A stretch of 64,000 nt of DNA from Blepharisma japonicum (taxonomy: Eukaryota > Ciliophora > Heterotrichea > Heterotrichida > Blepharismidae): positions 124,001-188,000 of the forward strand of contig CATKHK010000063.1 of assembly GCA_949751835.1 (NCBI GenBank). The letters are read 5' to 3'. This document shows, one piece after another, positions 1,844 to 60,502 of this stretch. The notes under the pieces are model-generated. The model saw only the letters and a program-made list of their open reading frames with translations. It had not been told where the DNA came from and made no database searches. Both the position numbers and the translations under genes were made by a program. Within the stretch, counting starts at the first letter, position 1, and each line of letters begins with the position of its first letter.

Positions 1844-4111
1844 ATGAAGCATAGAAATAGGCCTGAACCTCTTCCAACAGTTTCTTTTAACGATAAAAGC
1901 TTCAAAAATAGTGATAAAAGTGAAGAAGATGAAAGACTGGCTTATCTTGAGCAGCTTAGAACTATGAGTCCTATTTCATTTAAACGAAAAGACCCAATAA
2001 TGCCTGAACCTCCTCAAATTTTGGCAATTATCCCACACAACCTAGGAAAAATCCAAAAATTAACTGCTTATAAAAATGATTTAGCAACTATTTTCCGTCA
2101 AGAAAATAATCAAAAATCCCAATTTAATGATTCAATTATTAAACCTATGAAAGATTTTACTGAAAAATCCTTTCATAAAGAAATAGAAGCCCTTGAAAAT
2201 ACATTAAAAGAGAAAAAAAGAAGCTTAAGCACAAAATACCCACAAAGCACTCATCATTATTTCAAAAAGAATTTAGGGATTTTTTCCCCTGGAATAGTAA
2301 GAATATTTCCTAAAGACGGCCGCCCTAAAACCCCAACCTCTGTAAAAATGGCTCAAAATGACTCAAAATCTCCTTCCCCCAAAAAAGCAAATTTAAGTAA
2401 AATCTCAACAAGACTAAACATTTCACCATTACTCAAAAGAACAGAAGAAGTAAGACTAACGCCTATGCATAGGCCTAAACATATTGCTTCACCGCTATCA
2501 AAATCGATTTCAATAGAAAATGGAGAAGAACTAGTCAAAGATGAAAGCTCACAGCTGAGAATTGAGTGCTATAAAGGGGATTATTCAGGAGGTAAAAGGC
2601 ACGGAAAAGGAGAAATTGTGTATAATAATGGAGATTCCTACTCTGGGAACTGAGTAAATAATAAGAAAGAAGGCAAAGGCAGGTACTTCTATAACCATAT
2701 TGGTGCAGTTTATAGTGGAGAATGATTTAATAATAAAAGGCATGGCGTAGGGAAACTAAAATTCAAAAATGGAGATAGAATTTCAGGGACTTGAATAGAA
2801 GGCAGACTATCAGAAGACCACACAACAATTGACTATTCAGATAAAGGTAAATACACTGGAGAAACAAAAAATTGTGTCCGTAATGGATCAGGAACCATGA
2901 AATATAGCTGTGGCTTCTTTTATCGAGGAAATTGGAATAATGATATTCGTGAAGGAAATGGCATCATTGTATATAAAAGAGAAATTTTCTTTGAAGGGAC
3001 TTTTCATAATGATTCTACTGATGGGCTTGGAGTTTTGGTAAGAAAAGATATTATTAATTATGAAAAAATAAATAGCTATGATGATGAAAATGACTCACCA
3101 AGTGTTATTTTTATGTCAAAAGATTATGATGCATATGATAGAAAAGCTGAATTTGGGAATATTTCAGTATTTCTTGAATTTAGCCAAATTTCTCTGATGC
3201 CTGAAGATATAGTTTTTATTGCCTTATTATCAGAACAGCTCGATAAAAGACTAGACATCCAGCATCCACACATAGAATCTGGCAGTTTTAAATCAGGAAA
3301 ATTAGGAGGGTAATTTTTATATAGAGCTGGACTAGCAAAATATGGAATTTTTGGAAAATATGAAGGTTCGTTTAAAGAAGGCTGTAGAACAGGATGAGGC
3401 AGGATGATTTATTCAGACCCTGAGCACTTCTGCAACTGATTTAATGAGACTGAAGGAACATACGTAGGAGAATGAAAAGACGATTTTAGGCATGGATCTG
3501 GTGTAATGGTATGGCCAAATGGGATGAAATATGAAGGGAGATACATAAGAGACCGAAGAAATCACGTTACTGGAAAAATGACTTTTCAAAACGGAGAAAT
3601 TTATGATGGAGGATGGGTTGATGATAAAATGGAAGGAGCCTGCACCTTTAAAAAGCAAAATGGGGTCATTTTTAAAGGACAGTTTTCTCGAGGTCTGCCA
3701 TCTGACATGGGAGTTTTAGAATTTCCTGATGGAGCCAGATATGAAGGAAAAATAGAAAAATGGGTGCCACATGGTATGGGAAAAATGAGGTCTGCAAATG
3801 GAGATATTTATGAAGGAGAGTTTGAGGAAGGAAAAATCAATGGGGTTGGGGCTATGATATATGCAAATGGAGATATTTATAGTGGAGAATGGGACAATGG
3901 GAAGAAAAATGGAAAAGGGCATATGAAATATTCTAAAAATGGAGAAACTTATGAAGGAGAATGGGTAAATGATTACAGAGAAGGGAAAGGAGTACTGAAA
4001 GATGCGGATGGGGATATTATCTTTTTAGGGCAATGGGCTAACGATAAAAAAGAAGGAAGAGGGAGTATTGCCCATACACCAAGTGGGAAATTAGCTTTAG
4101 GCTACCTTTAA
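1844..4111 (+). CDS. MORN-repeat protein
   Basis: Reads as 750 residues when TGA is Trp and one 15-nt intron (3310-3324) is removed. The N-terminal 200 residues are basic and disordered. From about residue 235 to the end there are many MORN repeats of the form Y-x-G-x-W/F-x-x-G-x-x-x-G-x-G, for example YEGEFEEGKINGVGAM and YSGEWDNGKKNGKGHM. Tandem MORN motifs bind membranes or act as rigid scaffolds in ciliates and other protists, often at cilia or cortex. Conserved repeat Trp positions are encoded by TGA (2651, 2723 area, 3397 area) as well as TGG, which is direct evidence for reassigned TGA. A region around residues 385-480 departs from the repeat pattern and may be an inserted loop. The partner and location are unknown. 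Confidence 0.85.
3310..3324 (+). other. 15-nt spliceosomal intron in MORN gene
   Basis: GTAATTTTTATATAG. Its first in-frame triplet after the split codon is TAA; removal restores GG|A and continues the MORN repeats on the other side (GKYEGSFKEG). Confidence 0.9.
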
Positions 4112-4191
4112 TTGCTATTTTATATTTCATTGTTTGCATATTGAGCTTAATAAATATTTATTATTATAAAACCTATATTTGCCTTATGAAT

Positions 4192-4518
4192 TTATGATAA
4201 TTTTTTTATAATTTCTTCCTCAATAATGGGAATCATCTCAGGGTTAACCGCTTCAATATTAATAGAAAAAACTATTGGTATATTGGTTTTTTTGCAGATT
4301 TTCTGTATAAAATATGTTCAGCTTTCTTCAAATCCCATGATATGCACAATATTCGGCAATGGATTCTATATGATGTTTACATATTTTGTCTGAATTCCCA
4401 TAATCAGATTGTTAAAAGAGCACTCATCTTTCCCAATATACACATAAGCACACTCATCTAGTTTCAAAATCTGTAAGTATAAAGTGCCGACTTCTAGTGG
4501 GAATTCAATAATTTCCAT
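4192..4518 (-). CDS. proteasome assembly chaperone 4-like (PSMG4/PAC4)
   Basis: Two exons on the minus strand, 4518-4381 and 4365-4192, give 103 residues starting MEIIEFPLEVG. The C-terminal half (CKKTNIPIVFSINIEAVNPE, then EEEIIKKLS) lines up by eye with the human PSMG4 segment KTNKQVFVSYNLQNTDSN...VENRIKEE, and the middle V-Y-I-G...N-L-I-M matches its L-W-V-G...N-L-A-V-A-M. PSMG4 pairs with PSMG3 to help build the proteasome alpha ring in the cytosol. The length is near the family's usual 120 or so. One Trp is encoded by TGA. The start lies 18 nt from the stop of the upstream EF-hand gene. It could be another PAC3/PAC4-fold protein. Confidence 0.6.
4366..4380 (-). other. 15-nt intron in PSMG4-like gene
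   Basis: Minus-strand sequence GTAAACATCATATAG, phase 0, between TKY and NPLPN. Confidence 0.85.
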
Positions 4519-4536
4519 AAATTAATATAATTAAAT

Positions 4537-5262
4537 TTAACTCATAACATATTTTCTGAGCAGCGACCTCACCCCATAGCTATACAACAGCTTGCTAAGC
4601 GAGTTGTTGATATCTCCAAGTTTCATAGTCAATTCATGCTGACTGATTTCTTTTTCTACAAGTAGCTGCTTTGTGATTTCTCTTATAAACTCATCTTTTC
4701 CACTTATCAGTTTATCTTTATAAGCATCAATGTCTTCTTTGTTCATAAACCCTATCCCTTCACCTTTAGCAAGTACAGGTAACACATTGACACAGACATC
4801 GACCATTGCTGCAAGCATTTCTTCGATTTCTGAAGGATCAAGCATCCCAGTTGCATCTACGTCGAATTGCCTAAAAAGTCAGTCAGCTTTCTCTTCAGCT
4901 GTTCCAATCCCTATGACAATCCCTATCAGTGACAGTTTTTTTGTGTCATAAAGCTTATTTTCATTTTTGACCTTTGATAAAAGATGATATGTAGGAGTGT
5001 CTGGAGAAGTTAATTCAGTTTCAGGGATCTGCAGGTCATGAAAAACTCTTTTGAGCTGAGGCAAACTTAAGGCGTTCTGCAAAGATTCTGCTTTGATAGA
5101 TTTCACTATTTCTTTGCTCAAAAGTCTGGAGAAGTGAAGTTTTTTTTCCTGCTCTAAAATAATTTTGTCTTCTAACGTCAAATCTTCTTCTTTTGGAGCT
5201 GCTATACCTTTTGTTGCTGGGGGTGGAAGATCAGAACTATTTTTTGCAACACAGCATCCCAT
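4537..5262 (-). CDS. N-myristoylated EF-hand protein
   Basis: 241 residues when the TGA at codon 128 is read as Trp. It begins MGCC, the classical signal for N-myristoylation at Gly2 with palmitoylatable cysteines beside it, so membrane attachment is likely. A canonical EF-hand loop, D-V-D-A-T-G-M-L-D-P-S-E (about residues 134-145), has acidic residues at positions 1, 3, 9 and 12. The rest is helical, with a possible second, degenerate EF-hand pair around it. The N-terminal 30 residues are Pro/Lys-rich linker. This architecture suits a calcium sensor at a membrane, but no specific family is recognised. Confidence 0.75.
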
Positions 5263-5283
5263 GGTAATTTATTAAGAATTATG

Positions 5284-5586
5284 TTAAAATATGCTTTTGT
5301 CATTTATTGTCTCTTTTGGGGTAGAAGTAGAGTCAATAAGCAAATCAAAATTGATTTTTCTGAGATTAATCTTGTCTCGCTATGTAATAATTACTCTATT
5401 TTGCCAATAAGGAGCTGTGTAAATAATTTCTTTAACTATGTGAGATACTTGATGGGCAAAAAAGCCAGACATAATATAGATAAAGCCAATAAAGACACCT
5501 ACTTTTTTATATTTTGGGTTTCGTTTTGGAAAAGGGATTGAAGCTCCATATCTCAAAGCACCTGGTCGATCTCTATAATTGACCAT
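5284..5586 (-). CDS. small single-pass membrane protein, unknown
   Basis: Two exons (5586-5395, 5379-5284) give 95 residues. The N-terminus is basic (MVNYRDRPGALRYG...KRNPKYKK) and is followed by one hydrophobic segment (VGVFIGFIYIMSGFFA, about residues 29-44), then a polar tail. Size, basic leader and single helix are like many lineage-specific mitochondrial respiratory-chain subunits of ciliates, but that is only a guess. It is divergent from the EGF-RING gene, with 83 nt between starts. Confidence 0.6.
5380..5394 (-). other. 15-nt intron in small membrane protein gene
   Basis: Minus-strand GTAATTATTACATAG, phase 0. Without splicing the frame ends at this TAG after 68 codons; with splicing it continues for 32 codons. 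Confidence 0.7.
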
Positions 5587-5669
5587 TTTCTAATTATTTT
5601 CAATTTTGTTTCATCTAAATTTGATTAAAATGCTTCAATTTATATAAATGAGTTAATTTTTATTTTAAA

Positions 5670-7055
5670 ATGATAATAGCATTGATTTGTGCTTTGAATG
5701 TAATTTTTGCTTCATCAATTTCAAATACAGTAGCTGCCCCTTTGTCAATTGGAGACGAAATTTCAAAAACTCAAAATGACACTTGGGCTTATTTCAAAAT
5801 TAAAGGCTTTGAATCTCCAAACTTATATTTATCTGTCAGTATCGAACTCTCTGAACCTGAATCTGTATGCTTAGTCGTCAAACAAAATACAATGCCTCAG
5901 CTATATGCTGGGTACCCTCAATATGATTGAATTGATATAGATAATTGAAAACTAGGGTCTAAGAGACATGATGTAATAATACCTCCGTGAAAATATTCAT
6001 CATATTCTTTGTATATAGGAGTTTATTTACAAGCAGTAACAGTCATAAAATATACAATTAAAGCAGTGCAATCTGAATCTAAACCTTGCCAGAATAACTG
6101 CACTGAGAACGGAACATGTGATGGAGGAACCTGTAATTGTGATACAGGATACATTGGCAATGATTGCCAAGTGCCTGCAACTGCTTTAAGCTTAGGCTCT
6201 TCTCAGCAAATGAGAACTAATCCTGGTTCAATTACTTATGCTTATTATGGAGATCTAAATTCTGAAACCGGGAAAAATATAAATGTGAATATAAAATCTT
6301 TTGGAGACTCCATCACTGTATATATTAAACCTTCACAAACCAACTTGGCAACAACCTTACCTTCTGAGTCAGTATTTGTAGCAACAGTTAAGAGCGCAGA
6401 TATTGATTATACGATAAATGCCAAAGATTTTATGACTTATTTTGCTATAGTAAATGATGATAGTATTGGTATAGATCTTGAGTGAAAATTGTCTCACAAT
6501 AGTAGCTCTGACAACTCAAAAGAAATAATTTTTTACACCTTAATTACAGTTTCATCCGTAATAGTTTTAAGCTGGGTTTCATTTGCGCTTTACAAATCAC
6601 GAAAAAGATTTCAGATCATCCAAAATCCAGCTGAAAATTACCTAGAAAGAGCGCTAGACTTAAAGATAATTGATGATAATTTTCCAGAAAAAAAGCTAAA
6701 ACAATTAGATATTGATCGCGGTAATGCGTCTTGCCCTATTTGTTTGGAAAATTTTGCAATTGATGATTCGATTAGAGAACTGTTATGCGATCATATTTAC
6801 CATCAAAAATGTATTGATGAATGATTTGCAACTAAATCTTACTGCTGCCTTTGCAAAAGAGACTATAAAAACGTTGACAGCATGGATTTAACGAGACCTA
6901 TTGAAGAAACTTTACCCATGAACAACACTCTCGGACTAATAGTCGGAGCTAATGAGGAATCCCAAGGGATTGCTGTAAGCAACCCTATACAAGAAGAACA
7001 TGCAGAGGATGAAAATGAAGACGTAACCTTCAGAGGAAGCTCAAACATTAATTAG
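5670..7055 (+). CDS. EGF-TM-RING-H2 membrane E3 ligase candidate
   Basis: 461 residues with several TGA-encoded Trp. A signal peptide (residues 1-16) leads into a beta-rich ectodomain, then an EGF-like module at about 140-166 with six cysteines (CQNNCTENGTC...CNCDTGYIGNDC). One membrane helix lies at about 285-307. The cytosolic part carries a RING-H2 finger at about 355-401: C-x2-C, then CDHIYHQKC, then C-x2-C. RING-H2 proteins recruit E2 enzymes for ubiquitylation. The layout resembles PA-TM-RING proteins such as GRAIL/RNF13, but the lumenal domain has EGF rather than a recognisable PA domain. It is expected in the plasma or endosomal membrane with the EGF outside. Confidence 0.8.
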
Positions 7056-7168
7056 GCTTGAAATAATTTTTTTTTGCTAGATACTGATAATAAATAATTT
7101 TTCTTGTGAGTAAATAAATATTTCCTTATTAAGAAAAAATATTCCAAGTGAATTAAAATTGAATTATT

Positions 7169-8299
7169 TTACACTTTTATGTGACATTTTAATGCTTCCC
7201 TTACATCCTCCACATCACTGACTGCCAAATTGACCAAAATTGGCAGTAACCTTTTCAGCTCATTGTCTGACTCATCCCCAGTAAAGGGACTGATTAAAAT
7301 TCCATTATTTGGATGCATGCTGAATGATGTGGACCAGTCGTCAATAATAATGACCTTTGATAGGTCTCTGCCTAGTAGTTCCAAGTTTTTTACATAAGGG
7401 CTGTTAAAAGCTCCTGTATGCTGCCTGTACAGTCTCAGCTTGATTTTATTTGAAGGATCGATTTGTTTGATTGCGGAATCTGCGTAATCTTGTGAGCTTG
7501 CTGTGAACAGCACTAGTTCATAAAATTTGTCAAGCTCTGAAATGAACTCTTCTACGCCAGGTCGTTTATAAAATATCCCGTTCTCTGTATGGCCTAATGT
7601 TTCGTCTAAATCAAGCACCAAAGTCATAGTCTTATGAGAATAAGCCGGCAGAAATGGGGCCTGTCGAAATGTAAAAAAAGATTGAACAGATGGGAAAAAG
7701 CAAATTTTCGTCATAATCTGCGCTTCTTTTCTTAAATTCGCAATTCCAATATATGCCAGCTCAAAAGGAATTTGCTGGAAAATGCTTAACATTTCTATCA
7801 CAGTAAAAATGGTGAGAACAACGCCAGGCGACAAATTTCTACAAGCACTGGCGCAGTAACCCAAGTAAATCCTCAAATTCCCCAAAAAGCCTTCAATGCT
7901 TTGCAAGAGCTTTCTAAGTAATTGTTGCTGCTTCTGTTTGCTTGAATTTTGCAATGTTAAAGCAATTATTTGGAAATGCTTTAATACATCATTTTGCAAT
8001 TTTTCTATAGTGCCATTCCCAGCCATAGGTATAAGGCCTACCACTTCGCAGAGTACTATACTTATCATCCCTAAATTTAAGGCTTTTTCGATAAAAGGGT
8101 CCTTGAAAACGGTCGAATTTTGCATCCATGCTAACCGAGAAAAAATTTTATCATAAGACGATCCTGAGCAGGACTGGAGGTTTTTGAAAATGTCGCTGAT
8201 ACAAATGAGGAGATCGTCTTGGCCCGTCTTTCTGGAGCCAGCTATGTTATCTATAGATGTTTTTGATTGTGAATTGAGAGCCTCAAAGCACGCTTCCAT
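7169..8299 (-). CDS. FCP1/NLI-interacting-factor-like phosphatase
   Basis: 376 residues in one exon. The C-terminal 150 residues form an FCP1-homology HAD domain: DLDET at 230-234 (catalytic DxDxT nucleophile), the RPG segment (KRPGVEEFI), LFTASSQDYAD, and VIIIDDW near 315-322. Such enzymes dephosphorylate Ser/Thr, for instance on RNA polymerase II CTD (SCP/FCP1) or in lipid regulation (CTDNEP1/Dullard). The N-terminal 220 residues are helical with hydrophobic stretches (for example GVVLTIFTVIEMLSIF) and are unassigned; one or two may touch the membrane as in Dullard. It is convergent with the RING gene (113 nt between stops). Confidence 0.85.
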   Translation of the reverse strand: MEACFEALNSQSKTSIDNIAGSRKTGQDDLLICISDIFKNLQSCSGSSYDKIFSRLAWMQNSTVFKDPFIEKALNLGMISIVLCEVVGLIPMAGNGTIEKLQNDVLKHFQIIALTLQNSSKQKQQQLLRKLLQSIEGFLGNLRIYLGYCASACRNLSPGVVLTIFTVIEMLSIFQQIPFELAYIGIANLRKEAQIMTKICFFPSVQSFFTFRQAPFLPAYSHKTMTLVLDLDETLGHTENGIFYKRPGVEEFISELDKFYELVLFTASSQDYADSAIKQIDPSNKIKLRLYRQHTGAFNSPYVKNLELLGRDLSKVIIIDDWSTSFSMHPNNGILISPFTGDESDNELKRLLPILVNLAVSDVEDVREALKCHIKV

Positions 8300-9547: not shown

Positions 9548-11041
9548 ATGGGAAGCAGTAGTCTAGTTCAATTCCTCAAAAAGCTCCGAATTATTCACTC
9601 TAAAACATCAAAAAAGCACAAGGAACTAATTCGAATTTTAGATTCCATCGATATGTGTCAATTACCTGTAAATTTAAATTAGGATTATCCTAACAAAATA
9701 GCAGTAAGCTCCAATTCTTTATCAAAATTTGCAGAGACCGCTAGCGATCTTTATGAGAATGAAACAGAAACCAGCGAAATCTTAGATGCCTTTGAAGAAA
9801 AAATACTAGAAATTGGAAAAATCAAGCGAGTCGCCAAAGGCTTAAAGCAACATTTAGATCATATGAAAGAAAGAATTAAAAGAGACAATAAAGCTATTTC
9901 AAATATCGGGAAGCGAATTTCTTCAATATTAAAAGAATATCGCGAAAGATGCCATGGAAGCTATGTTGAATTTTTAAAATCAGTCGATTTAGACCTCCGA
10001 AGAATTCTAAAGCCGCTGGTTCCTAATAAAGTGATTGATGAAAATGTGAATTTTCCTATGATAAATCCAAATTTAAGCTTAATCAATTCTTTTGAGTCCT
10101 CCAAGGTATCTAAAGCCAAAGATGAAGATATTGGTGAAGAATTAGGAGAAGATACAGAAACAGAGTCAGAAGACAAAGACAAAACAATTGAAAAACTCCA
10201 CGAGCATGTAAGTATGCTTATAAACACATTAGAATCCGTTGCAAAAGAACTTATTAATATTCTTGCAGACACAAATTCAAAATATTATGAAATTGTTAAT
10301 CCAAATATTCTGTCGCTGAACCCAAAAACTCCTCTTGCAAAACCTCTGCCTGAATATTTTACTTTTGATATGGAAGAGCCTGAAGATGTACCAAAGATTA
10401 TGCAAGTACAAAAAGATGCATTAAATAGACTGAAATCGAGGCTGAATGAGCTTATAAATAATTGCGATTTGTCAAAGGAACAGGCCAAAGTTTTTGAGGA
10501 GAAACTTAGCAAAATGGATAAAGAAGGGAAAACTGATATTCATGAAATTTTTAAAGATTCAGATGTCCCAATTAGCAAAAGGGAGGAAATCGTATTTAAA
10601 TTAATTGATTCAGGAAGAGAGGCTAGCAAAGATGTGGATATTAATGATATGCTTTCTGTTTGCTCAGTAAAAAATTTGCATAGGAAAGAATCGATTAAAA
10701 AATTTTCAAAATTAAAACTTCCTCCTTCAAATGAAAAAGTAACCAAAAGGAAAAATACCGAACTTGACCCAAGAAGAGCTTTGACTCCTACCCCTGCTGA
10801 AAATGGATTCCACACACCTCAGATAGAATCTGAGAAAAAAGAACGATTTTTCCTTCAAAGGGCTTCCAATCCGGCAGAAATTAAAGATTCTGATTTATTA
10901 AGTAATGACAGATCTGTACCAAAAATACAGAAAAATAAAGAAATTCGAGTGAGATCAACGACACCAACATTTACAAAGAAAAAGCAGCAGTTTAAAACAG
11001 GAATTTCACTGTCTCGAAAAAAAATTGCAAGCAAGCCTTAA
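9548..11041 (+). CDS. coiled-coil protein, unknown
   Basis: 492 residues from two exons (9548-9667, 9683-11041). Helical, heptad-like segments cover most of residues 1-340, including an acidic block (EELGEDTETESEDKD). The last 100 residues are basic and Ser/Thr/Pro-rich, and so probably disordered. It looks like a cytoskeletal or scaffold protein, but no family is recognised. The start at 9548 is chosen because splicing the 15-nt intron joins it in frame to the long second exon; an unspliced reading could only start at the downstream ATG 9863. Confidence 0.75.
9668..9682 (+). other. 15-nt intron in coiled-coil gene
   Basis: GTAAATTTAAATTAG, phase 0, between QLP and DYPN. Confidence 0.8.
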
Positions 11042-11142
11042 TGTAAATTTTTTAATCCCATTTTTGGTAATTCTAAGTAAATCAGAATTTTTGATAAATA
11101 ATATAATTTGGCCTGGTTTATATATTAAAGTATTTATCTATA

Positions 11143-11307: not shown

Positions 11308-11359
11308 ATTAATATTACCAAACTAATTTACTATGCAAATAAATAAAATTATTCTAAAC

Positions 11360-12007: not shown

Positions 12008-12077
12008 AGGTTAACACTAAATATTTTGCATTAAAATTAAATATTAGCTGATTTATTTTATGTTTTACAAAATTGAA

Positions 12078-15382: not shown

Positions 15383-15403
15383 TTATGATATTTAAACAAA
15401 AAA

Positions 15404-28076: not shown

Positions 28077-28739
28077 ATGTCTATTTATAGTGGATTTGCA
28101 ACAAGAAACCTTGAAACAGCATATAATAATGGAGTGTGTAACCTTATTCAGCTTATTCAAACGAACCTATTATATCTATTAAAAGGAGGTATCTTATAAT
28201 CAGAGCCTATTGATACTGTTCTTTTAGCAGCCTCATTCACAAAAACTTATAGAGAACTAAAACGTCTGGAAAAAAGAAAGCATCTCATGCCTAATTTCAC
28301 GTCCTACTGCAGCGATATTGCTCTTTATTTTGGTACTATGGTAGTTTCTATGCAGGACAAGCCATTATCACAAGGAGGGTCTTCTGTAAGCTCAATTACA
28401 AGGAAAGAGTTTGATGCCCAAGTTTTTAATGATTCCTTTAGTTTTGAAGAAAGGAAGCATAGATTCACGCCCGTTCATTTAGCGTCAGAATTAGAACCAG
28501 TTACAGAAAAAAGGAGTTTAAAAAGAAGAGTTATGTCAAAAGACACATTAACTAGAAAAGAATCAGAACCAAGACTTTCAGGCTCTCCACTTGGTAGAGA
28601 TATTTATCCTTTGTCTTTAAAAACTCCACAACCTTATAAATCACAGAAATTTAAATCGTTTAAACCCGAAAAAGCTTCACAAATATATCAGCAACGAGCA
28701 TTTCTCAAGCTAAATAAAGAACTTGAAAGTTTAACTTAA
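28077..28739 (+). CDS. basic protein of unknown function
   Basis: 215 residues from two exons (28077-28188, 28204-28739). The N-terminal 90 residues look helical and folded (MSIYSGFATRNLETAYNNG...), while the remainder is Ser/Lys/Arg-rich and probably disordered. The upstream exon is supported by a proper 15-nt intron and in-frame joining at KGE|PIDT. If that were wrong the start would be ATG 28287. No family is recognised. Confidence 0.65.
28189..28203 (+). other. 15-nt intron with CAG acceptor
   Basis: GTATCTTATAATCAG, phase 1. It is the only intron here ending CAG rather than TAG; it contains an in-frame TAA if retained. Confidence 0.65.
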
Positions 28740-31898: not shown

Positions 31899-32211
31899 TT
31901 ATTAATCGCCTTATTATTAGCTTCAAATAATTCAATGTGTATACTCATTTAAATATTTAAGATTTAAAATTCGATAAGACAATTGCTTAATTTCCTCAAC
32001 AGAAATGAATGAGATTCAAAAATATTAATTTATAATAACTGTGAGACTAACTTAAATTGTAAATTTGATTTACCAATTCATGGAATCTTTCATAATTAAA
32101 TTTCACAATTGGTGTTAATAGGCCTATTTGTGATTACCTTATATGTAATTTTTATTCTTATGTATTTTCTATATAGATAAATTACTCTCCAAATTAACTT
32201 AGTTGAATATT
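31899..32211. other. AT-rich divergent intergenic region
   Basis: 313 nt between the coiled-coil gene start (minus) and the NT-C2 gene start (plus); presumably holds both promoters. No distinct motif is seen. Confidence 0.5.
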
Positions 32212-33897: not shown

Positions 33898-35325
33898 TTA
33901 TCTTCTCCCTTTACCTTGAGGGACTGTTTTACGTGAATCAACTGTCTTAATACTTTTTAAGTTTTCTTCATCTGCTGATAGCACTTTATGTCCAGCATTT
34001 TTAAGGAAGTTAACTTTTTCATCCATAACTTTTCTAATATCTTCTTTAGAGGCTTCAGGTTTTGCAATTTTTTCCCTCCACTTTTTGCATAAACTGCTAG
34101 CTTTTATCTGAATTTCACTGTTTTTTGAGTCTTTGCTGAGCTTGTTGATAGAGCTCATAAGTGGTTTCATTTCATCGATTATTTTTTCTGGAAAAGAGTC
34201 TCCAACTCTTCGTAGCACGGCTAAGATTTCTACATCAGATGCTTTTGCGATGGCATCATCAAGTCTCTTTTTTAGTCTACCCCAGTCTTCAGCAGCAGAT
34301 TCTTTTGCAGCGACTTTTTTATAGGTCTATATAAAAAATACTTCTTTCAGACTTTTAACGAGTTTTGAGCTTTTATCTTTGATAGCTTCGTTTTCTACAG
34401 TTTTACAGTAGTTCAATAGATTATTTGGGAGATTGGTGTCTGCAAGGATTTTATATGAATAATCGTTGGGACTTGGAATAAAGAGCCTTTCCAAAGTATC
34501 AAGGATTTCAAGAGAAATAGTAGTTTCTACAGTCCCAATATCATCAATCATCTTTTTTACATTTTCAAAATTCAACGTAAGTGAACTATAAGAGAATTTT
34601 TCTTCAATATCCATTTTCGTATCCTCCTCTGACTTATTTTCTTTCACATCTTCATCTCCTTCATCCTCAGTACCAAAAATTGAGTTTTCTGAAGACTCGT
34701 CCTCATCCTCTTCAGAATCAAAAATTTTTTGTCTTTCGTTCTGGTTTTCTGACTCTTTTTTTGCTTGTGTTTTTGGTTCTTCTTCGACCCTTATTTTTAC
34801 TTTTGTTTCTTCGCTGGGCTTTGGCTTTGGCTCATCTTCAGTTTTATTTTTTATTTTTTCTTCTTTGGGCTTCTCTTTTGTTTCTTCTTGCTTGGATTTT
34901 TCGCTTTCTTCTGACTCGCTTTCTTCTCTTGGCTCAGAAACTTTTTTGTTGCTTGGCTTTATTAAAGAGTCGACTTTTGAAGGATCATAGCTTTCTTCCT
35001 CGGAATCATCAGCTTTTCTTTTTTTTTGAGGAGCTGGTGGCTTATGAGGTATTGCTTCAGACTTTTTCTTAGCTGGAGCTGCTGAAGTGGCTGGCCTTTT
35101 CTTTGGGATTGGACCATCTGAGTCAGATTCAGACTCTTCATCAGAAGTTGCTTTGGGTTTCGTTTTCTTAGGGATGGATTTTGTAGTGAGCTCGAGCTTG
35201 GAGTAGAATTCTTTTATTTTTGATAAAAGCTTGCCTGCGCTTGAATCTATCCGAGATTTGAACTCATTTTGGTAGGATTCACATTCTTTTTTGAAAGTCT
35301 CTAGTAATTCGTCGAGTGGATTCAT
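33898..35325 (-). CDS. nuclear acidic protein with TFIIS-N-like helical domains
   Basis: 470 residues from two exons (35325-34342, 34326-33898). Residues 45-230 are a K/E/S-rich, low-complexity, highly charged region with nuclear-localisation-like basic runs. Two helical bundles follow. The second (LAVLRRVGDSFPEKIIDEMKP...INKLSKDSKNSEIQIKASSL, then CKKWREKI) has the spacing of TFIIS N-terminal (TND/LW) domains found in TFIIS, LEDGF, IWS1 and MED26: a helix, a short turn, then S-x-E-I-x-x-x-A-x-x-L-x-x-x-W-R/K. These domains bind disordered transcription-elongation partners. The intron falls between the two bundles. Confidence 0.6.
34327..34341 (-). other. 15-nt intron in TFIIS-N-like gene
   Basis: Minus-strand GTATTTTTTATATAG, phase 0, between LKE and TYKKV. 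Confidence 0.85.
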
Positions 35326-39748: not shown

Positions 39749-39944
39749 TTATTATAGTAAATTTTATGTAGAATAATGAGGCATATTTAGATAAATTTTT
39801 TTAAATTTATAGCATGGCTAATTGAAGGTTTTTGTTAATTTTAAGTATTTTATTAGGAATAATAAGATTTAACAGTTTATATGTACAACAGATATTTATT
39901 GCTGTATTTTTATATGAATTATCCTCAATTGAGTTAAATAAATT

Positions 39945-41835: not shown

Positions 41836-44175
41836 TTAAGATTTATCTTTATCTTTGCCAGAAAATATGTTACTAATTCTCCATTTTTTCTTCTTTTTAA
41901 GAATTTCTTCCAGCTGTGATTTATATATATCTCTTGCATCTGCCAAAGTGACCATCTCTAGCTTGGCATCAATAGCAATTTTTTCTGCTTCCATAAGATC
42001 GTTCATAAGGTTATTGTTATGTTCTGCCCATTTTTCTTTAGAAAGCATCAGCTCAGTTTCCAGCCTTTGGATTTCTGCTTTAAGCATGTCCCTTTCAGCT
42101 TCAACGACTAAAAGTTTGGATTTTTCACTATTTGATGCTACATTATTAGCTTGACTTTTAAGTTTTCTTTTTAATTCTTCACATTCAGTGATAAGTTTAT
42201 CCTGTGCTCTTTTCAAATCACTGAAGTCTTTTTTCAGCTGTCTATTAGAGGTGAATAATTCTTTGACTTGGTTTTCGAGTCCTTGCTTTTCAACGACCAT
42301 ATTTTTGATTAAAAATTCTTTTTCAGCCTAAATAAAGGTTACAATCTCGACTTTGAGTTGGTTGGTTTCTTCAGTTTTTGCTGGAGGAAGTTCGATCTTT
42401 GGTTCTTCTTTTGGAGGAAGCTTAGGTGCCTCTTCTTTTGGAGGAAGTTTTGGTGGCTCTTCTTTTGGAGACGGCTTAGGGAGCTCTTCTTTGGGCTCCT
42501 CTTCAATTGAGGACTCAAAAACTGGTTTCGGCTCTTCAGGCTTGGGAGGATTAAAGAAAGGGCTGATACTTGATCTGACTTCGTATTTAGTTTGTGGAAC
42601 TATAAATACATTTTCTTTGGGTTTCCCGAATTCTAAAACTGCTTTACTAAATTCAATTGTTTTTGGGCGTGAAAATGTGCTGGGACGAGGCCTTGGGAAC
42701 ATACTCCCTCTAGGAGTGGTATCAGCTGAAGGTGGAGGTCTTACACTTTGTCGGATTGGAACAGGTCTAGCATCTGCTGAAACTTCAGACAGCTCATCAA
42801 ATAAAGAATCTTCGCCTAAAAAGGAAGTCTTATTGATATCTAATTGATCTTGCATTTCTTGAATCTTTTCTTTTAATTCTTGATTTTCTCTTGTAAGAAC
42901 TAATAATCTTTGAGTAAAATCATATTGCGCCTTTTTAACAGCATTATTTTCGTTCTCTTCTAAAGCTCTTAATTTATTTTTTAATTCCTCATTTTTCTCT
43001 GCTGCCAATTTAATTTTTTCAGTAAGCCTGTTTATTTCTTTATCTTTTCCATTTACTGCTCTTAAAAGTTCATTATACTTGTATTTTTCTGTTGTTAATT
43101 GGCCATTGAATTCCTCAAGTTTTTCTTCTTTATCTTTTTCCATTTCTCTTATAGTTCGTTCCAATTGCGAGCACTTCTTTTGAAGATCCTGAATTGCTTG
43201 TGCCCTCTGTTCCTCATAGCCTACAGCAGCAGTTGAAATTTCTTCTTCTAAAGCATCAATAGCTTCTTGCTTATTTTCAAGTCCTTTTAAATAGGTTTCT
43301 CTTTCTCTTTCTAGCTCCATAACTTTATCTTCTAAAACTTGGAATTCTTCAGCTAATTTTTCTCTTGATTTTTTCATCTGCTGCAATTTTCCTGCTTGAT
43401 CTTTTAATTCTTCATACTTTTCTCTAAGTTCTTCTTCTAAGCTTTCTATTCTTATTTTAAGCTTGCTGTTTTCGTCACTGTTTTTTTCTTTTTCTTTCTC
43501 AGCATTGTCTTCCTCTTCCAACTTCTGCTTCCTTTCTAGCGACTCTTTTACAGATTCCGAATCCCTCAGTTTTTTCATCAAATCTTCAACATATGCCTGC
43601 ATTTCTTGTCCATCTGTTTTTGCTTGTTCTCTTTCCTCTTCCAATTGATTTTGCAACTTATCATATTCCTTTACATATTCATTATAGGCATCCTGTAGAT
43701 CTTCTTGAATTTCATTTAAGCTTAAAATTTTTTTCTCCTTTTCTCTGATTTCTCCTAGAGCATATTCTTTGAACTGTTTTAGTTCCTCTTTAAGTTTATT
43801 ATTTTGTTCTTGCAATTCTCTAATTACCTCTTGATCCCCTCCGCCAATGAAAGAACCTCCACTGATAAATGACCCTGATGATGATTTAGTATCTAAGACA
43901 TCTTTTAATTGCTTTTCTCGTTCTAAAGCTTCTTCTAACTGTTGCTGAAGCTCAGAGATTTGGGTGAGGTTTGCACGCAAATGTTGTAATGAAGTTTCAA
44001 GCGATAGGCTTTTTTGTTGCTCAGCTTGTAATTGTGCTGAGAGTTCGAAGATTTGTCGTTGGAAATTTCTTTCTTGGTTTTTTTGTTGTGAAGCTACGTC
44101 TTGGTATTTTTGACGCTCTTTGGCAAGCTCTTCTTGGAGATTGTGCAACGCAGATGTCCCAGCTTGATCTACCAT
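41836..44175 (-). CDS. long coiled-coil protein with Pro/Glu/Lys hinge
   Basis: 774 residues from two exons (44175-42343, 42327-41836). Residues 1-450 are coiled coil. A disordered region with Arg/Pro and phosphosite-like segments follows (about 460-540), then a short repeat hinge built on KEEPPKLPP / KEEAPKLPP units (about 570-600), then a second coiled coil to the end (KKKKKWRISNIFSGKDKDKS). It resembles golgin- or basal-body-type scaffolds only in general form; no name is justified. The intron lies just after the hinge. Confidence 0.8.
42328..42342 (-). other. 15-nt intron in coiled-coil gene
   Basis: Minus-strand GTAACCTTTATTTAG, phase 0, between KVEI and AEKEF; joins the hinge to the second coiled coil. 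Confidence 0.85.
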
Positions 44176-45362: not shown

Positions 45363-46322
45363 ATGGTAGTGGAATCTCTGATAGGCAGTGTTTGCTGCAG
45401 TTTCACCGTACTTATTGCCACTACCCAAATCCTCATGCATCTTTGAAACTATAACGAGCCACGGCTCCAGCTTTATATCTCGAGAATAGTTTTAATGGTT
45501 CCTGTAGGAGTTATTTAGGCATACTCAATCCAAAGTTTCCTCTCCATCATATATCCTGACCGTTCTTTATTTTTTAACACTATTAGAGACTGCTACGAAG
45601 CTTATGTTCTCTATTTATTTACCAAACTTATCATAGAGTATATTGGCGGAGAAGAGCGAGTGGTCACTCATTTCTTACACAAAAAGCAAATCCCTCATTT
45701 ATGGCCTTTCCAAAACAAGATCCTTATACTGAACGAAAAAAGTTATCATAGGATTAAGCAAGGCGTTTTTCAATTCATCGTGATTAAGCCTCTTACATCT
45801 TGCCTTGCATTACTATTAGCTGGGTGGAATGTATATAAAGATGCTGATTTTTCGTTTGATAATGGGTATCTTTATTGCTCAATTGTCAACAATATTTCAG
45901 TGACAGTTTCGCTTTACAGCTTAATGCTGCTTTATTTAGCTTGCTTTGAACAATTGGAGCCTTTTGGGTGTGTAGGGAAATTTTTGTGTATTAAAGCTGT
46001 CATCTTTTTCTCATTCTGGCAGTCTTGTGCGTTTGCAATAATTGTTAGACTGGGATGGTTCGGGGAATTTGAAGAAGCCACACTGTTTGTGTCTTCGCTG
46101 CAGGATTTAATTTTGTGCATTGAAATGGCGCTTGCGTCTGTAGCTTATTGGAAATGCTTCAGCTGAAGGGACTTTGTTATGAAAAACAAGAGAGAGTATA
46201 GCTTTTTGAAAAGTGTCCGAGATGTGCTAAATGTAAAAGACGTAATTTATGATGCTAAAAAGACTTTTACGCATACTGGTGTGCAGCTAGGCTATAAAGA
46301 AAATTCTTGGGAAAACATCTAA
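45363..46322 (+). CDS. TMEM184 / OST-alpha family membrane protein
   Basis: 314 residues from two exons (45363-45503, 45519-46322). Seven hydrophobic helices are present. Family blocks are clear: HLWNYNEPRLQLYISRIVLM then VP|AYSIQSFL (spliced), NTIRDCYEAYVLYLF, KQGVFQFIVIKPLTSCLALL, VGKFLCIKAVIFFSFWQS and LQDLILCIEMALASVAYW. These match TMEM184/LAZ1 proteins (M-V-P-I-Y-S, R-E-C-Y-E-A-Y-V, F-L-C-V-K-x-V-V-F-x-S-F-W-Q). The family lies in plasma, vacuolar and endosomal membranes; transport is inferred from the OST-alpha relationship. Two Trp are TGA-encoded. Start ATG 45363 puts the first helix about ten residues in, as in relatives. Confidence 0.88.
45504..45518 (+). other. 15-nt intron in TMEM184-like gene
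   Basis: GTAGGAGTTATTTAG, phase 0. Splicing creates MVP|AYS, the most conserved motif of the family, which makes this the best-supported intron in the window. Confidence 0.95.
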
Positions 46323-46374
46323 TTATATTAGGGAGAATTATGAAGAGAAATTTAACTTAAATAATAATATCATG

Positions 46375-53403: not shown

Positions 53404-53479
53404 CTCATTATTAGTCTTATAGTGATTTTTTAAATAAATTCGAATATTTTCTATAATAAATTGTAGATAAATAAGAGAA

Positions 53480-54720: not shown

Positions 54721-55043
54721 GGCCACTCTGAAAAATTAACTCTTTATTTCTTTCTGTTATATATTACTCCTCCCCTATTTAATTTTGAAAGAAAAAAGCG
54801 TTTAAAAACAATGTTTTAAGACATTGCACTGAGAAAGAGCTGGATATTTTTAACTAATAATAAAATTATTGTCTTTTATCTAATGCCTAATAATAATCTA
54901 ACTTGAATCTATGTACTGCATAATATACAAAATTTTAATATAATGAAATAATAAAATAATGCATTTTAGCTTAAACAAAAGAATCCTTCTAACTGGAGTA
55001 AATTTTTATTGCAATAAATAGAAGAATTAATGTAATAACTAAA
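54721..55043. other. AT-rich spacer after the mobile-element fragment
   Basis: Base composition returns to the AT-rich local norm. There is no gene, RNA or repeat that I can support before the ATG at 55044. Confidence 0.5.
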
Positions 55044-56147
55044 ATGGATATGCAGGGAGATTCAAATCTGTATTTAGCCAATTCGAAATCCTCATGCTTG
55101 CCAACGAAAACTAGATCTCAGCTTATAAATATTCACAGCTCCTCTAAACTTACCAATCCAAATAAAGAGCATTCTCTCAGAAATCAGCCTATTAAAATAG
55201 TGAAAAAACCGCAAAACTTGGATTCACATCCTCGATATTACGAACGAGGCCAACAAAATTTTAAAATCCAAGACATTTATGAAGACTCAGAGCACAAAAG
55301 GCCTCGCAGACCTTTTAAGGTACTTGATTATAATCCACATGAGTCATTTCACTCGAGAAGCCCAACAACAATTATAAAAGAAGTTGACCAAAGCTATCAA
55401 TTTGTGTCAGCTTTAAGCAGTGTTCCAGATTCTGATCAATCACGCTCTATAATTTCAATTGATTTTTCAGATTGCCGAAAAGGAAGCTTTAATTTAGATT
55501 GCCTCGATAATTCTGATGAGTCGCTAAGCAATCTTTCATTCATTGAAGAAGGAGAGGAGCCTAAAGAGAAAAGCAATATTAAGGCTTCATTTAACTCCAA
55601 TCAAGAAAGCACAAAGTTTTCAATATTTGGATCAATGGTAGATCCAAAAAGCCAATATTCTCCAGACGTAAGGAAAACTCCGACCAAAAAACCTATTGAA
55701 GAGCGATACTCACCAATATATAACGCAGGCGCAGACTCCTCATCAAAAAGTCCGTATCAAATAAAACCAGAAAAAAAATCCCCTCACTCAGAAAGGAATA
55801 ATTTAACAACAAGAGTTACTGCGAATACTTTAGAAAATGAAACAGAATTAAATACAGAAGCTAATGAATTTCACTATGAAAAGAAAAATTTCTGTAACTT
55901 TGAGTTTAATAGCGATGGGCCGAATATTCTTCCGACAAAAGCGTATTGTAGCATCTGTAGGAAAATGGTAATGACAGCTGTAAAAATAGAGATGGCTGAG
56001 GTTCCACTGTAATTTTTATTTAGATGAAAACGTATTTGCTGCTCTAATTGCTATGGAGGAAATACGCTTAATAATTTGCAAGCAATAGTGCATTACTGTA
56101 AAAAATGCAAAACTTTAATTAGAAAAATTCAGCCGGGAAAGCTATAA
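55044..56147 (+). CDS. LITAF-like zinc-ribbon protein with long disordered N-terminus
   Basis: 362 residues from two exons (55044-56008, 56024-56147). The first 295 residues are disordered, Ser/Pro/Lys-rich. The C-terminal 65 residues form a LITAF-like zinc ribbon: CSIC, then a middle VPLWKRICCSNCYGG, then VHYCKKCKTLI, giving C-x2-C ... C-x2-C pairs. LITAF/CDIP1 domains attach to endosomal membranes through an amphipathic insert between the zinc halves; here the insert is short. The intron sits inside the domain and its removal creates the TGA-encoded Trp codon region PL|W, so the zinc ribbon exists only after splicing. Confidence 0.7.
56009..56023 (+). other. 15-nt intron in LITAF-like gene
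   Basis: GTAATTTTTATTTAG, phase 2 (CT|A). Without splicing the frame ends at TAA just inside the intron, before the zinc ribbon is complete. Confidence 0.9.
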
Positions 56148-56373
56148 GCTGATTGATGTTAATTAATATAGCTTTATCATCTTATAAACCTTTATATAAT
56201 TTCATTAATTCTTTAATAATTTGTTAATTTTCTCATAAGTTAATTATATGCTCTGAAAAGTATTAAATACCTCAATTTTAAATTCCTTATAAAGACTTGC
56301 TATTTATAATCAAAATTCAGTTTATTAAATATTTTCCATTTTGATTTACTAAAACACTGATTATGTTTCAAAT

Positions 56374-56961
56374 TTATTCAATTCTTCTCTTACATGTTGG
56401 GCACGAATTTTTCATCCTCAGCCAAGGCACTAGACATTCTGAATGAAATAAATGCCCACACGGAAGACTATTCGCTTCTTTTCCTTTATCAAAAAATTCC
56501 ATACAAATCATGCACTCTTTTCCTATTAGCTCATTTTCAATACTTACAACAGGCAAATTCTCAATAGTGCCTTGAGAAACATCATTTCTTTCGCCCAAGC
56601 TGTCTTCCATTAATTCCATTAAAACTTGTAAAAAAGCTCTCCTAGTGATATCTCTTCTATCCATCTCTGATTGCCCTTCTGATAAATCGTGAGCAATTCG
56701 TCCAAATAAAGCGCTTGGGTTGAAGACTAGTCTTCTGTTTTCTCGATGATTTCTTACATCAAGATCTTCCTCGTTTGAACGGCGAATTTCAAAAATAAAA
56801 GGATTTGGGTCTGCTTGAGAGTTTCCTCGTAGATCTCCAATTTCGGCTACTTGAAGAAAATCGCTTCCACATCTCGGGCATAGCAGTTGAGAGGGATCAA
56901 TAGAGGAGGTGACTTTACAAGAGTGACAATAATAGTGTTGTTCTTCGATATCTCTATCCAT
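56374..56961 (-). CDS. RNF126/RNF115-like RING-H2 ubiquitin ligase
   Basis: 195 residues. The N-terminal zinc finger YYCHSCKVTSSIDPSQLLCPRC (6-31; C-x2-C...C-x2-C) and C-terminal RING-H2 (CMICMEFFDKGKEANSLPCG then HLFHSECLVPWLRMKNSCPTC) are the two marks of the RNF126/RNF115 (BCA2) family. In animals these ligases handle mislocalised hydrophobic proteins through BAG6 and sort endosomal receptors. The linker is shorter than in human RNF126 (311 residues). The gene is a single exon in the cytosolic/nuclear class, with no membrane segment. Confidence 0.85.
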   Translation of the reverse strand: MDRDIEEQHYYCHSCKVTSSIDPSQLLCPRCGSDFLQVAEIGDLRGNSQADPNPFIFEIRRSNEEDLDVRNHRENRRLVFNPSALFGRIAHDLSEGQSEMDRRDITRRAFLQVLMELMEDSLGERNDVSQGTIENLPVVSIENELIGKECMICMEFFDKGKEANSLPCGHLFHSECLVPWLRMKNSCPTCKRRIE

Positions 56962-57683
56962 TTATAAGCATTTCGCAGATTATTTTTGCTTGAAAATAGA
57001 AGGCTTAAAAAAATAAATAAGACTTAACCTTTCTCTATTCAGATATTCAAACAGGATTTATAATTTCTTCTAATAAGATTAAGTTTAGTGCTGTAATAAT
57101 AGAAGGTATTCATAATTAAAATTTAGAATCAGATATTTTTATCTAAGCACAAATCTATAAAATGGTTAAGTGTGCAAGAGCTATAAATGTCCAATTATTT
57201 TTTTACTATTAAATGCTTTCTTTATGAATTAAAAATCTATTATTTTATTTTATTCCAAACCTTAAATATTTTATCTTTTATTTACAAAGAATTAATGATA
57301 ATTTTAACTTTAGCTATTGCATTAACCAATTTGCACTTGATTTTCTAAAAAAAAAATTAGAATATGTGTAAACGGCATTCTAAAGTTTAATAAATGCAGA
57401 GTTCTTTATAGGTATTTAATAAATTATCCAAAAATATTAAATCGTCTTTGTTTTATTGCTAGATTCTGACTTACTTGATAATTTTAGTTTCCAAAAATAG
57501 ATATTTTTTGTACTAAAAGTTCAGATAAAATAGTTTTTTAATTAATCAGGCTCATTTTAACACTGATTTATCTTAGACCCCTTCTTATATAACCCCCATA
57601 TTTCTATTTGCAAGCGTATTATAATTGAGTCGAATATCAACATTTTTATGTAAAAAGCAATCAATTCTACGATACTATAAAAT
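56962..57683. other. AT-rich divergent intergenic region
   Basis: 722 nt between the RNF126-like start (minus) and the USP5 start (plus). It has long A/T runs and a CCCC-containing patch near 57578-57599; no gene or known RNA is seen. Confidence 0.5.
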
Positions 57684-59975
57684 ATGGCTTGTGCTCACCT
57701 GACCCATTCCAATATCACTCAGAATTTGCAGGGAAAATTTATCCACAAAGACGAATGCACAAAATGTTTCGAAACATCTGTAAATTTCATATAGAAATCC
57801 GAACATGGCATCGATATTTGCTTAAAGTGCTTCAATGGGTCTTGTTCAGATTTTCATTCATCTCAACACTACCTAAGTCAGCATCACCCTATTGCCCTTC
57901 ACCTTGAAATGGTTAAAAGGCCTAAGGTATCAGAAGAGCCTCAACAGATCTCAAAGCTTGCAATTGGAGTTCCAGGAGGAGCAGGATATTCAGGCGACGA
58001 ATGGGATCCTCACACTAACCTAAAGTGCTTAGCTTGCAACATTTTTCTCGTTCCTACAGCAGAAATCCAGCTTCTTACCAATTCTATACTTATGGCAAAC
58101 TCAGCATTATTCCAGTCATCAGTAGATGCATGGGAATTGGAGTTACAGCCATGCGAACATACCTTATTATTAGAACAACTACCAAGACAATTAGCAGAAA
58201 AAAGCTTAGCTTCTTGTAATAGCTGCGATTTAAAAGCAAATTTGTGGCTTTGTATGGTGTGTGGAAATTTAGGATGTGGAAGAAAAAATTATGACGGGTC
58301 TGGAGGGAATGGGCACGCTTTGACTCATTTTCAAACTACTGGGCATGGAGTTGTGTGCAAAATAGGGACGATTACTCCAGAAGGTACAGCTTCAATCCAT
58401 TGTTATAACTGTGATAACGAAGTTTTAGACCCTTCTCTTGCAGATCACTTAAAAACATTTGGAATTCTAATTCAGCAACAAGTAAAAACAGAAAAGACTA
58501 TTACAGAAATGGAATTAGAAAGCAATATCAATTTAACCTTATCAAAAGCAGTTGAAGAAGGTAGAACTTTATCTCCAAGATATGGCCCTGGATATACTGG
58601 GATGGAAAACTTAGGAAATTCTTGTTATCTTAACTCAGTGATGCAGCTGATTTTTTCTTTTCCTGAATGGCAGCAGCGGTATACAGATGAAGACCACTTA
58701 AATGGATGCAGGTCAAATGATCCTTCACAATGCTATTTCTGTCAGATTAATAAGCTTGGACTTGGATTATGGAGTGGAGAACACTCACTTCAGAAATGGA
58801 CAGAACCAGTTAACACTATTACAGGAGAAGTTATCCCACCAACTGAATATCAAGATGGAATCCGCCCTCAGATGTTCAAAGCATTGATAGGCAAAGGCCA
58901 CCCCGAATTTTCTTCTGCAAGGCAGCAAGACGCTTATGAGTTTTTCAGCCACTTTTTAAGTGTCGGCCAAAAAGCTGAAAAAGCAGTTGGAACAATTAGC
59001 TCATACCCAGGAAAAATATTCGAATTTAAGCTGGCAACCAAAATGAAATGCTTAAAATGCCATGGAGTTAAATATAGCAGCGCAAATAGTACTGTAATTT
59101 CTGTAAGCATTCCTATTGACTTAAAAGATGATGGCCCAAATGTTGTTATTGACTTTGACAAAGTTTTAAATACATTTACCCAGCCAGAAATCGTGGAATA
59201 TAACTGTCCTAATTGTAAACAAACTACGAATTTTTCGAAACAATTTATGTTTGAAACTTATCCAAAGGTGCTTGTTATCGTGGTTAATAGATTTGTATGT
59301 CCTGATTGGGTGCCTAAAAAGCTAGAGTGTGGCATAAATGTACCAGTTGACCCATTTTCGCTTGAAAATATGAGGCTGGTTAAAGGAAATGAACAAGAAC
59401 TACCTGGGTCTTCTGAAGAATCAGGACCGAAATTTGATCAAGGTCTTTTAAATGAGCTATTAATGTTCGGATTTGGCGAAAATATAGCGAAAAGAGCATT
59501 AATTGCTACTAGTAATAGATCACTTGAAGAAGCCACTAATTGAATAGTAGAAAACTTAGAAAACCCTGAAGCAAATGAACCATTAGTTTCTTCTAGTAGC
59601 CAAGGACCTCAAATCAGCCAGGAATTAATTGATAACCTTACAGCTATGGGATTTTCAGCTAGTCAAGCTAAAAATGCTTTAAAGAATTGCAATTGTGACC
59701 CTGAAAGAGCTGTAGACTATCTTTTTTCTCACCCTGATGAAGATATGGAAGTAGAGCAGCCTCAAGCACAAGAAGAGGTAGGAGATAAAGGTCCAGCAAA
59801 TTATCAGCTTCAAGGAGTTGTGACTCATTTAGGTGCTTCTGTACATTCTGGCCATTATGTCGCCCATATTTTGAAGGAAGGAGAATGCATTCTTTTTAAC
59901 GATATCAAAGTTGCAGCATCATCTGATCCACCACTTGGAAAGGGCTATCTTTATTTCTTTAGAAAACTTAACTAA
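57684..59975 (+). CDS. USP5: ubiquitin carboxyl-terminal hydrolase 5 (isopeptidase T)
   Basis: 758 residues from two exons (57684-57779, 57795-59975). The N-terminal variant zinc finger (IHKDECTKCFETSK|SEHGIDICLKCF) matches the USP5 cUBP/zf start. The canonical zf-UBP is at about 180-245 (CMVCGNLGCGRKNYDG...GHALTHFQTTGH). The peptidase has a Cys box GMENLGNSCYLNSVMQ (Cys309) and a His box GASVHSGHYVAHI (His719). Two UBA domains (GLLNELLMFGFGENIAKRAL and ELIDNLTAMGFSASQAKNAL) interrupt the catalytic domain as in USP5. It disassembles free polyubiquitin chains. One TGA Trp lies between the UBAs. Confidence 0.93.
57780..57794 (+). other. 15-nt intron in USP5 gene
   Basis: GTAAATTTCATATAG, phase 0, within the N-terminal zinc finger (ETS|KSEHG). 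Confidence 0.9.
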
Positions 59976-60070
59976 TTTAGCAAAGAAATAATAAAAATGA
60001 TTTCACTGGAATAGATACCACTGAAATAGATATTCTTCAAAAATAAAAAAATACAAAGTATGATTATTTA

Positions 60071-60502
60071 CTAAGTTAATATTAACGATCGATTGCAATT
60101 AGGGCATGTCGGAAACTCTAGTTTTGCACTTAATCAATGATCTAAACAATTCGTGTGAAATGGATGCAAACAAGTAGTTACACGGGCTAATTCACCTTCA
60201 ATTACATCACTTAGACAAATCGTACAAACTGGCATTCCGGCAATTTTTATATCTTTTGTAAATTTTACTGCTGGAAGTATTCTTTCACAATATTCACTAC
60301 TAATTAGCCTTGAGAGTTCAGCAAAGCTGCTTCTGTTTGAAGCATCACCAACTACTGTTACTGGGGCAACATATGCTCTTCTCTTAATTATTTTTCTTGC
60401 CAATAAGCAAAAGCATACCACTCTAAATATCGCCTACAAAGAAATCATAACAAAAACTGCACTAATAGTAACTACCACTGAAAAAAAGAGTTCAGAATTC
60501 AT
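60071..60502 (-). CDS. small TM-RING-H2 protein
   Basis: 138 residues from two exons (60502-60438, 60422-60071). One N-terminal membrane helix (VVVTISAVFVMISLVVCFCLLA) is completed by splicing, then a basic stop-transfer KIIKRR. The C-terminal RING-H2 is CTICLSDVIEGE...CLHPFHTNCLDHW...CPNC, with the W after H-x2-C...H encoded by TGA. This is the ATL-like layout of small membrane E3 ligases. Under the standard code and without splicing, both the helix and the last zinc pair would be lost. The target is unknown. Confidence 0.8.
60423..60437 (-). other. 15-nt intron in TM-RING gene
   Basis: Minus-strand GTAGGCGATATTTAG, phase 2 (TT|A), in the middle of the membrane helix. Confidence 0.8.

Follow-up and report, generated by a model that had tools for sequence, protein, structure and literature searches.

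The window, by which we mean the whole 64-kb stretch of Blepharisma japonicum DNA analysed here, belongs to a 45.2-Mb assembly of 224 contigs. Once TGA is read as a sense codon, the longest stop-to-stop frame grows from 852 to 1,971 aa, and in long frames (themselves defined with TGA as sense) TGA accounts for 199 of the 618 TGA and TGG codons. One TGA in the USP5-like gene (57684-59975, +) aligns with a conserved Trp in the USP5 UBA region, which supports reading TGA as Trp. Under this code, genes of the window are interrupted by eleven short segments with the appearance of introns, listed here with strand, phase, host gene and the kind of evidence behind each (the free-length gene model is described further below).

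3310..3324 (+): 15-nt intron, phase 2, with the sequence GTAATTTTTATATAG; A10 is base 3319; gene 1844-4111; in-frame stop TAA at intron positions 2-4; joined frame and free-length model.
4366..4380 (-): 15-nt intron, phase 0; PAC4-like proteasome chaperone gene; joined frame.
5380..5394 (-): 15-nt intron, phase 0; small gene, family unassigned; joined frame.
9668..9682 (+): 15-nt intron, phase 0; gene 9548-11041; joined frame and free-length model.
28189..28203 (+): 15-nt intron, phase 1; ends in CAG; stop TAA at positions 9-11 takes in A10; joined frame and free-length model.
34327..34341 (-): 15-nt intron, phase 0; gene 33898-35325; joined frame and free-length model.
42328..42342 (-): 15-nt intron, phase 0; gene 41836-44175; joined frame and free-length model.
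45504..45518 (+): 15-nt intron, phase 0; organic solute transporter alpha-like gene 45363-46322; domain across the junction.
56009..56023 (+): 15-nt intron, phase 2; LITAF-like zinc-ribbon gene from 55044; joined frame.
57780..57794 (+): 15-nt intron, phase 0; USP5-like ubiquitin hydrolase gene 57684-59975; domain across the junction.
60423..60437 (-): 15-nt intron, phase 2; RING-finger protein gene; joined frame and a model call at 14-17 nt.

When the letters of the 64-kb window were re-read, all eleven segments proved to be 15 nt long at these coordinates and on these strands. An earlier note on this DNA had described them as starting with GTA, ending ten times in TAG and once in CAG, and carrying A at position 10 throughout, and the re-reading returned exactly these figures (GTA 11/11, TAG 10, CAG 1, A10 11/11); its statement that all introns are exactly 15 nt holds for those placed in the window, but not for the genome, where 16-nt introns were also found. 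With TGA read as Trp, excision of the segment joins two open frames in 11/11 cases, while the unspliced frame runs into a stop within it; that stop occupies positions 13-15 of the intron in seven of the eleven, 2-4 in three and 9-11 in one. The weakest case of the eleven is the 5380 intron, which scores 10.3 against a logo trained outside the window. Two further intron-like 15-mers, at 32162-32176 (+) and 39757-39771 (+), score 10.8 each; these lie outside predicted coding sequence, just before or after genes, and are either introns of untranslated regions or chance matches.

A Pfam scan of the joined proteins covered ten of the eleven genes, the gene at 42328 lying outside it, and yielded matches that cross four of the ten junctions scanned, two of them under the family cut-off. 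The strongest are PF03619 (Solute_trans_a; E 7e-80, residues 6-266, junction at residue 47) in the 45504 gene and PF17807 (zf-UBP_var; E 1.4e-18, residues 18-73, junction at 32) in the 57780 gene, whose joined protein also aligns with USP5 (3ihp) gap-free at the junction. The two matches under cut-off are PF16093 (PAC4; E 1.9e-6, residues 12-83, junction at 46) in the 4366 gene, with 28.2 bits against a cut-off of 31, and PF10601 (LITAF-like; E 0.0079, residues 297-355, junction at 321) in the 56009 gene. The RING match of the 60423 gene (PF13639; E 2e-9, residues 101-145, junction at 34) and the Med26/TFIIS helical bundle of the 34327 gene (PF08711; E 4.7e-7, residues 388-414, junction at 328) lie wholly past the junction and therefore support only exon 2. 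MORN repeats (PF02493; E 1.8e-55) occupy seven stretches in the 3310 gene, the best at residues 535-556 and the junction at residue 488, and are not counted as spanning it; the Pfam scan returned no match for the joined proteins of 5380, 9668 and 28189. Domain-spanned junctions are thus four of eleven, those without being 3310, 5380, 9668, 28189, 34327, 60423 and, outside the scan, 42328.

The shared A at position 10 exceeds the background of the window. Among the other GTA-N10-AG 15-mers of the window, A10 occurs in 16 of 67 (24%), and from this background the chance of finding it in 10/10 cases is about 6e-7 if independence is assumed. We also used a free-length gene model, based on GT, AG and codon usage with a uniform prior on lengths from 10 to 40 nt, on a sample of 264 kb comprising the window, a 10-kb stretch from each of 20 contigs (C1-C20) and six short snRNA loci. 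At one setting the model called 27 introns, 18 of which were 15 nt long, seven in the window and eleven outside it, with A10 in 18/18; at the other three settings 15-nt introns made up 16/22, 18/27 and 18/30 of the calls, and every one of them had A10. The nine calls of other lengths include one 16-mer and two that turn into a 15-mer and a 16-mer under restricted lengths, and inspection of the remainder revealed no pattern. At the setting with 27 introns and 10-40 nt, the model missed four of the eleven window introns (4366, 5380, 56009 and 60423); with lengths limited to 14-17 nt it recovered 60423, and 4366, 5380 and 56009 were joined by hand. Under the same limit, the 20 random stretches outside the window gave twelve 15-nt introns, A10 being present in 12/12. 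Plain word counts across the 264 kb point the same way: among GTA...TAG words of 9-30 nt, A stands at -6 in 40/73 at a length of 15 nt vs 474/1,472 at other lengths, the next-highest length being 20 nt (25/57).

With 14-17 nt allowed, and including the three introns joined by hand, the lengths found were 15 nt (n=40), 16 nt (n=8) and 17 nt (n=2). The 40 distinct 15-nt introns (37 model calls plus 4366, 5380 and 56009; 11 from the window, 12 from the random stretches and 17 from loci chosen by pattern) were assembled into a logo whose consensus is GTAA....YA..TAG, with GTA in 39, A4 in 31, a pyrimidine at position 9 in 36, A10 in 40, T11 in 28 and TAG in 36, the GT and AG ends being a requirement of the model and not an outcome of it. 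These introns are 78% A+T, and A10 is the sole internal base that is fixed. The earlier note had asked for a genome-wide logo of introns with and without in-frame stops; run in part for those with a stop, it gives A10 in 40/40, with the pattern-chosen loci contributing 17. Within the window, logo matches scoring at least 6 number 12 (nine of them introns noted earlier) against a mean of 9.6 in triplet shuffles, so the logo alone is no proof of introns and carries little weight. Across the whole genome, GTA-N9-TAG words have A10 in 7,699 of 14,467 (53%; 6,768 without), whereas words one base longer (16 nt) have A at the matching place in 3,969 of 13,333 (30%; 9,364 without), and reversed-word controls give 33% and 35%. 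If the rate in 16-mers is taken as background, words with A exceed expectation by about 4,830, which gives a rough idea of how large the GTA/A10/TAG class is; in B. stoltei, 4,670 multi-exon genes are reported (PMC10946202).

The eight 16-nt introns called, six of them in chosen regions, have A10 only in six cases, A11 only in one and both in one, and the two from the random stretches comprise one of the A10 and one of the A11 kind. The first five are biased, since they were drawn from words without A at position 11. Genome-wide, GTAA...YAT...TAG 16-mers number 238 with A9, 287 with A10 and 323 with A11, the A9 count being a makeshift baseline only, and the corresponding reversed-word controls number 579, 533 and 495. 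We therefore dropped the idea that 16-nt introns here use A10, unlike those of Stentor, since the genome counts put A11 no rarer. The 16-nt introns seem instead to use two registers, A10 and A11, in which case the distance from the first G to the branch point could be 9 or 10 nt, and that from the branch point to the last G 5 or 6 nt. In Stentor, A11 is found in 442 of 633 16-nt introns (PMC9505925), whereas here A10 and A11 both occur; the Stentor figure would also be compatible with two registers.

Introns without an in-frame stop lay outside the reach of the earlier note, and we searched for them with a logo-trained score over 213 kb of sense coding sequence from the random sample. Stop-free matches scoring at least 6 numbered 2 in sense and 8 in antisense, against a mean of 7.3 (s.d. 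2.2) in synonymous shuffles; this shortfall in the sense direction hints that cryptic tiny introns are avoided in coding sequence. The view that stop-free 15-nt introns are absent, taken from a first scan, is ruled out by one of these two matches, in a protein kinase gene (L019), where removal of the segment raises the Pkinase score from 174.2 to 185.9 bits (+11.7). The loci chosen by pattern hold five intron-like 15-mers vs 2.2 in shuffles, an excess to be expected from the way the loci were chosen; all five stop-free candidates score at least 7.5, against 1.5 to 2.2 matches in shuffles at scores of 6 to 7. Among these chosen loci, removal brings a modest gain for a DER1 candidate (30.1 to 34.5 bits) and takes a Sec23_helical candidate from no match to 17.1 bits, still under the cut-off. 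For the stop-free half of the logo that the earlier note had proposed, we used a score blind to position 10: matches of at least 8 have A10 in 4/4 (one random, three chosen), but those at 6 or above, where chance matches dominate, in only 4/12. Judging from these scores and the kinase domain, there is a class of predicted stop-free 15-nt introns, the best of which have the same A. This class is a minority, at about 1 of 24 (1 vs 23) in the random sample and up to 5 of 22 (5 vs 17) in the chosen loci. A gene for a cysteine-repeat protein (L037:3425-6359) contains at least four candidate tiny introns, comprising one of 16 nt, one of 15 nt with a stop and two that are stop-free.

Rfam models for the major snRNAs found genes for U1 (2), U2 (3), U4, U5 and U6 (1 each), and all eight reach the gathering score except the second U1. 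Intact motifs include ACTTACCTG in one U1, GTAGTA in U2 and ACAGAGA in U6. With TGA as sense and U1, U2, U4, U5 and U6 genes present, the segments fit introns of the major spliceosome (U2 type), the snRNA search having covered the major set. G is found at donor +5 and at -1 in 15% and 15% of introns (n=47) and in 18% and 17% of coding GTA sites; since these textbook donor bases are unenriched, we infer that U1 is able to pair with little beyond GUAA. All eight snRNA genes (L009-L014, L035 and L036) have CCCATAA or CCCTTAA about 50-60 bp upstream, by eye a putative shared snRNA promoter element. The second U1 gene (L013:1501-1661; G000:C17:419159-419319) scores 61.8 bits against the Rfam cut-off of 69.5; it keeps the upstream element, a TATA-like box and the 3' flank, and has a 5' end reading CAATTACAATGG in place of CACTTACCTGG, which would make UU|GUAAUU its pairing partner. 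Its mean pairing is 6.60 at introns (n=47) vs 5.96 for the normal U1, and 6.07 vs 5.79 at coding GTA sites, so that a variant U1 tuned to the tiny introns was rejected as weak, the fit being barely better than at coding GTA sites. The variant gene is only a lead, and a literature search on variant U1 genes gave no ciliate title among the matches listed.

The joined frames, the domains across junctions and the presence of A10 in samples well beyond the window support the earlier note's proposal of heterotrich-type introns with a fixed branch-point candidate. We consider it very probable that these are ordinary U2-type introns of a heterotrich ciliate in which A10 is the branch point, both splicing and branching being deduced from genomic sequence. 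U1 would pair with hardly more than GUAA, and U2 would pair weakly with the U-rich stretch ahead of the A; the 2'-OH of A10 would attack the first G of the intron to form a lariat with a 10-nt loop and a 5-nt tail, and the nearest AG, five bases downstream of the branch A, would be taken as the acceptor. There would be no space for a polypyrimidine tract between branch point and acceptor. Fixed length and fixed A would then express one constraint, because a near-minimal spacing has to accommodate donor, branch point and acceptor alike.

Alternatively, the introns could be real while A10 served recognition of the 3' splice site, as one base of a longer acceptor motif (A-N-N-TAG), and not branching. 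The constant distance between A10 and the acceptor in 15-nt introns suits this account; splicing nevertheless requires a branch base, A10 is the only internal base that never varies among the 40, and in some 16-nt introns the A stands one base farther from the acceptor, a poor fit to a rigid motif, so that we hold this account to be unlikely. The earlier note had cautioned that a search guided by in-frame stops is biased, and the fixed A might on that ground be an artefact of detection through a stop (TAA or TAG) whose middle base is position 10. The caution is apt for 28189, where the stop takes in A10, and for three others of the five stop-bearing phase-1 introns; yet in 10/11 window introns the stop lies elsewhere, the called 16-nt introns, which are visible by frameshift, have A10 or A11 in 8/8 cases, and the best stop-free candidates have A10 as well. 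As a general account it is refuted, and we give it very little credence. Ciliates carry internal eliminated sequences (IES), and retained copies also break frames, so the segments might be germline-type insertions left in this copy, or else sequencing errors. Such an origin would account for the broken frames, but hardly for a constant 15 nt, for GT-AG ends on the gene's own strand or for the same logo across the sampled genome, and is the least credible of these accounts.

The consensus of these introns has a further property. Read unspliced, it contains TAG in phase 0, TAA in phase 2 and no stop in phase 1, and shifting the 35 introns of phases 0 and 2 into a phase-1 reading would give a stop in only 3 of them. 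Actual phase-1 cases have a stop in 5/11 overall and in 3/4 of the random sample (Fisher p 0.013 and 0.008), small numbers in which the six stop-free cases among the eleven are logo matches and not all domain-checked. In four of the five stop-bearing phase-1 introns, 28189 included, the stop is a TAA centred on A10. Phases 0/1/2 in the random sample stand at 16/4/4 (p 0.002 vs uniform); we rejected this skew as a special feature, since it does not differ from 50/25/25 (p 0.26). It is conceivable, although we would not favour it, that the consensus both offers the spliceosome a minimal substrate and carries a stop signal of its own, with phase 1 often recruiting the branch A into a TAA; on this two-role reading the 15-nt length would be tolerated because most such introns, if left in the mRNA, would end translation. 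Lengths divisible by three, of which 15 is one, are under-used in several other ciliates; an enrichment of stops in 3n introns has been described for Paramecium, Nyctotherus and other ciliates (PMC5014332, PMC2633312). For heterotrichs, a literature search gave no stop-by-length analysis among the matches listed, the 2017 Stentor paper and the Blepharisma supplement lying outside it, and the main text of the Stentor paper PMC9505925 has none of the terms stop codon, in-frame, nonsense or retention.

The note's statement that 15-nt introns are known in heterotrichs is borne out for Stentor (PMC9505925) and Blepharisma (PMC9942806), and about 95% of heterotrich introns are given as 15 bp (PMC11441545). 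In Stentor coeruleus, 8,173 of 8,806 introns are 15 nt and the others 16 nt, with A10 in 8,005 (Nuadthaisong 2022, PMC9505925); they start with GTA, are mostly GU...AG, are 75.6% A+U and occur alongside all five major snRNAs (PMC9505925). The earlier note called the fixed A striking, fairly enough, but the pattern had already been published for Stentor (PMC9505925). The commonest Stentor intron (PMC9505925) is identical to the first intron of the window, at 3310; Stentor uses the standard code (PMC9505925), whereas here TGA is sense. Blepharisma stoltei has a 41-Mb genome (45.2 Mb in the assembly studied here), 66% AT, UGA read as Trp, and introns mainly of 15 and 16 bp (PMC9942806, PMC9942856), and A10 in Blepharisma introns may be described already. 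Loxodes magnus, of the sister group, has very short introns too, but with a mode of 17 bp, a negligible number below 16 bp and lengths divisible by three depleted (PMC11441545). Yarrowia, Trichomonas and Giardia share the fixed distance from branch point to AG and the lack of a polypyrimidine tract; they differ in having a strong CTAAC-type branch motif, where here little around the A is fixed, and the tabulated Yarrowia and Trichomonas introns are far longer than 15 nt (PMC2483917).

The intron pattern is thus confirmed and already known in kind. Its value is that raw sequence independently confirms how close heterotrich introns come to a lower limit for a spliceosomal substrate. With introns this small, the limits that spacing sets to the spliceosome can be put to the test, namely how U1, U2 and the acceptor can act on 15 nt. 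If the two-role reading were true genome-wide, a length of 3n would be tolerated by way of the stops in the consensus, which would tie the limits of splicing to mRNA surveillance.
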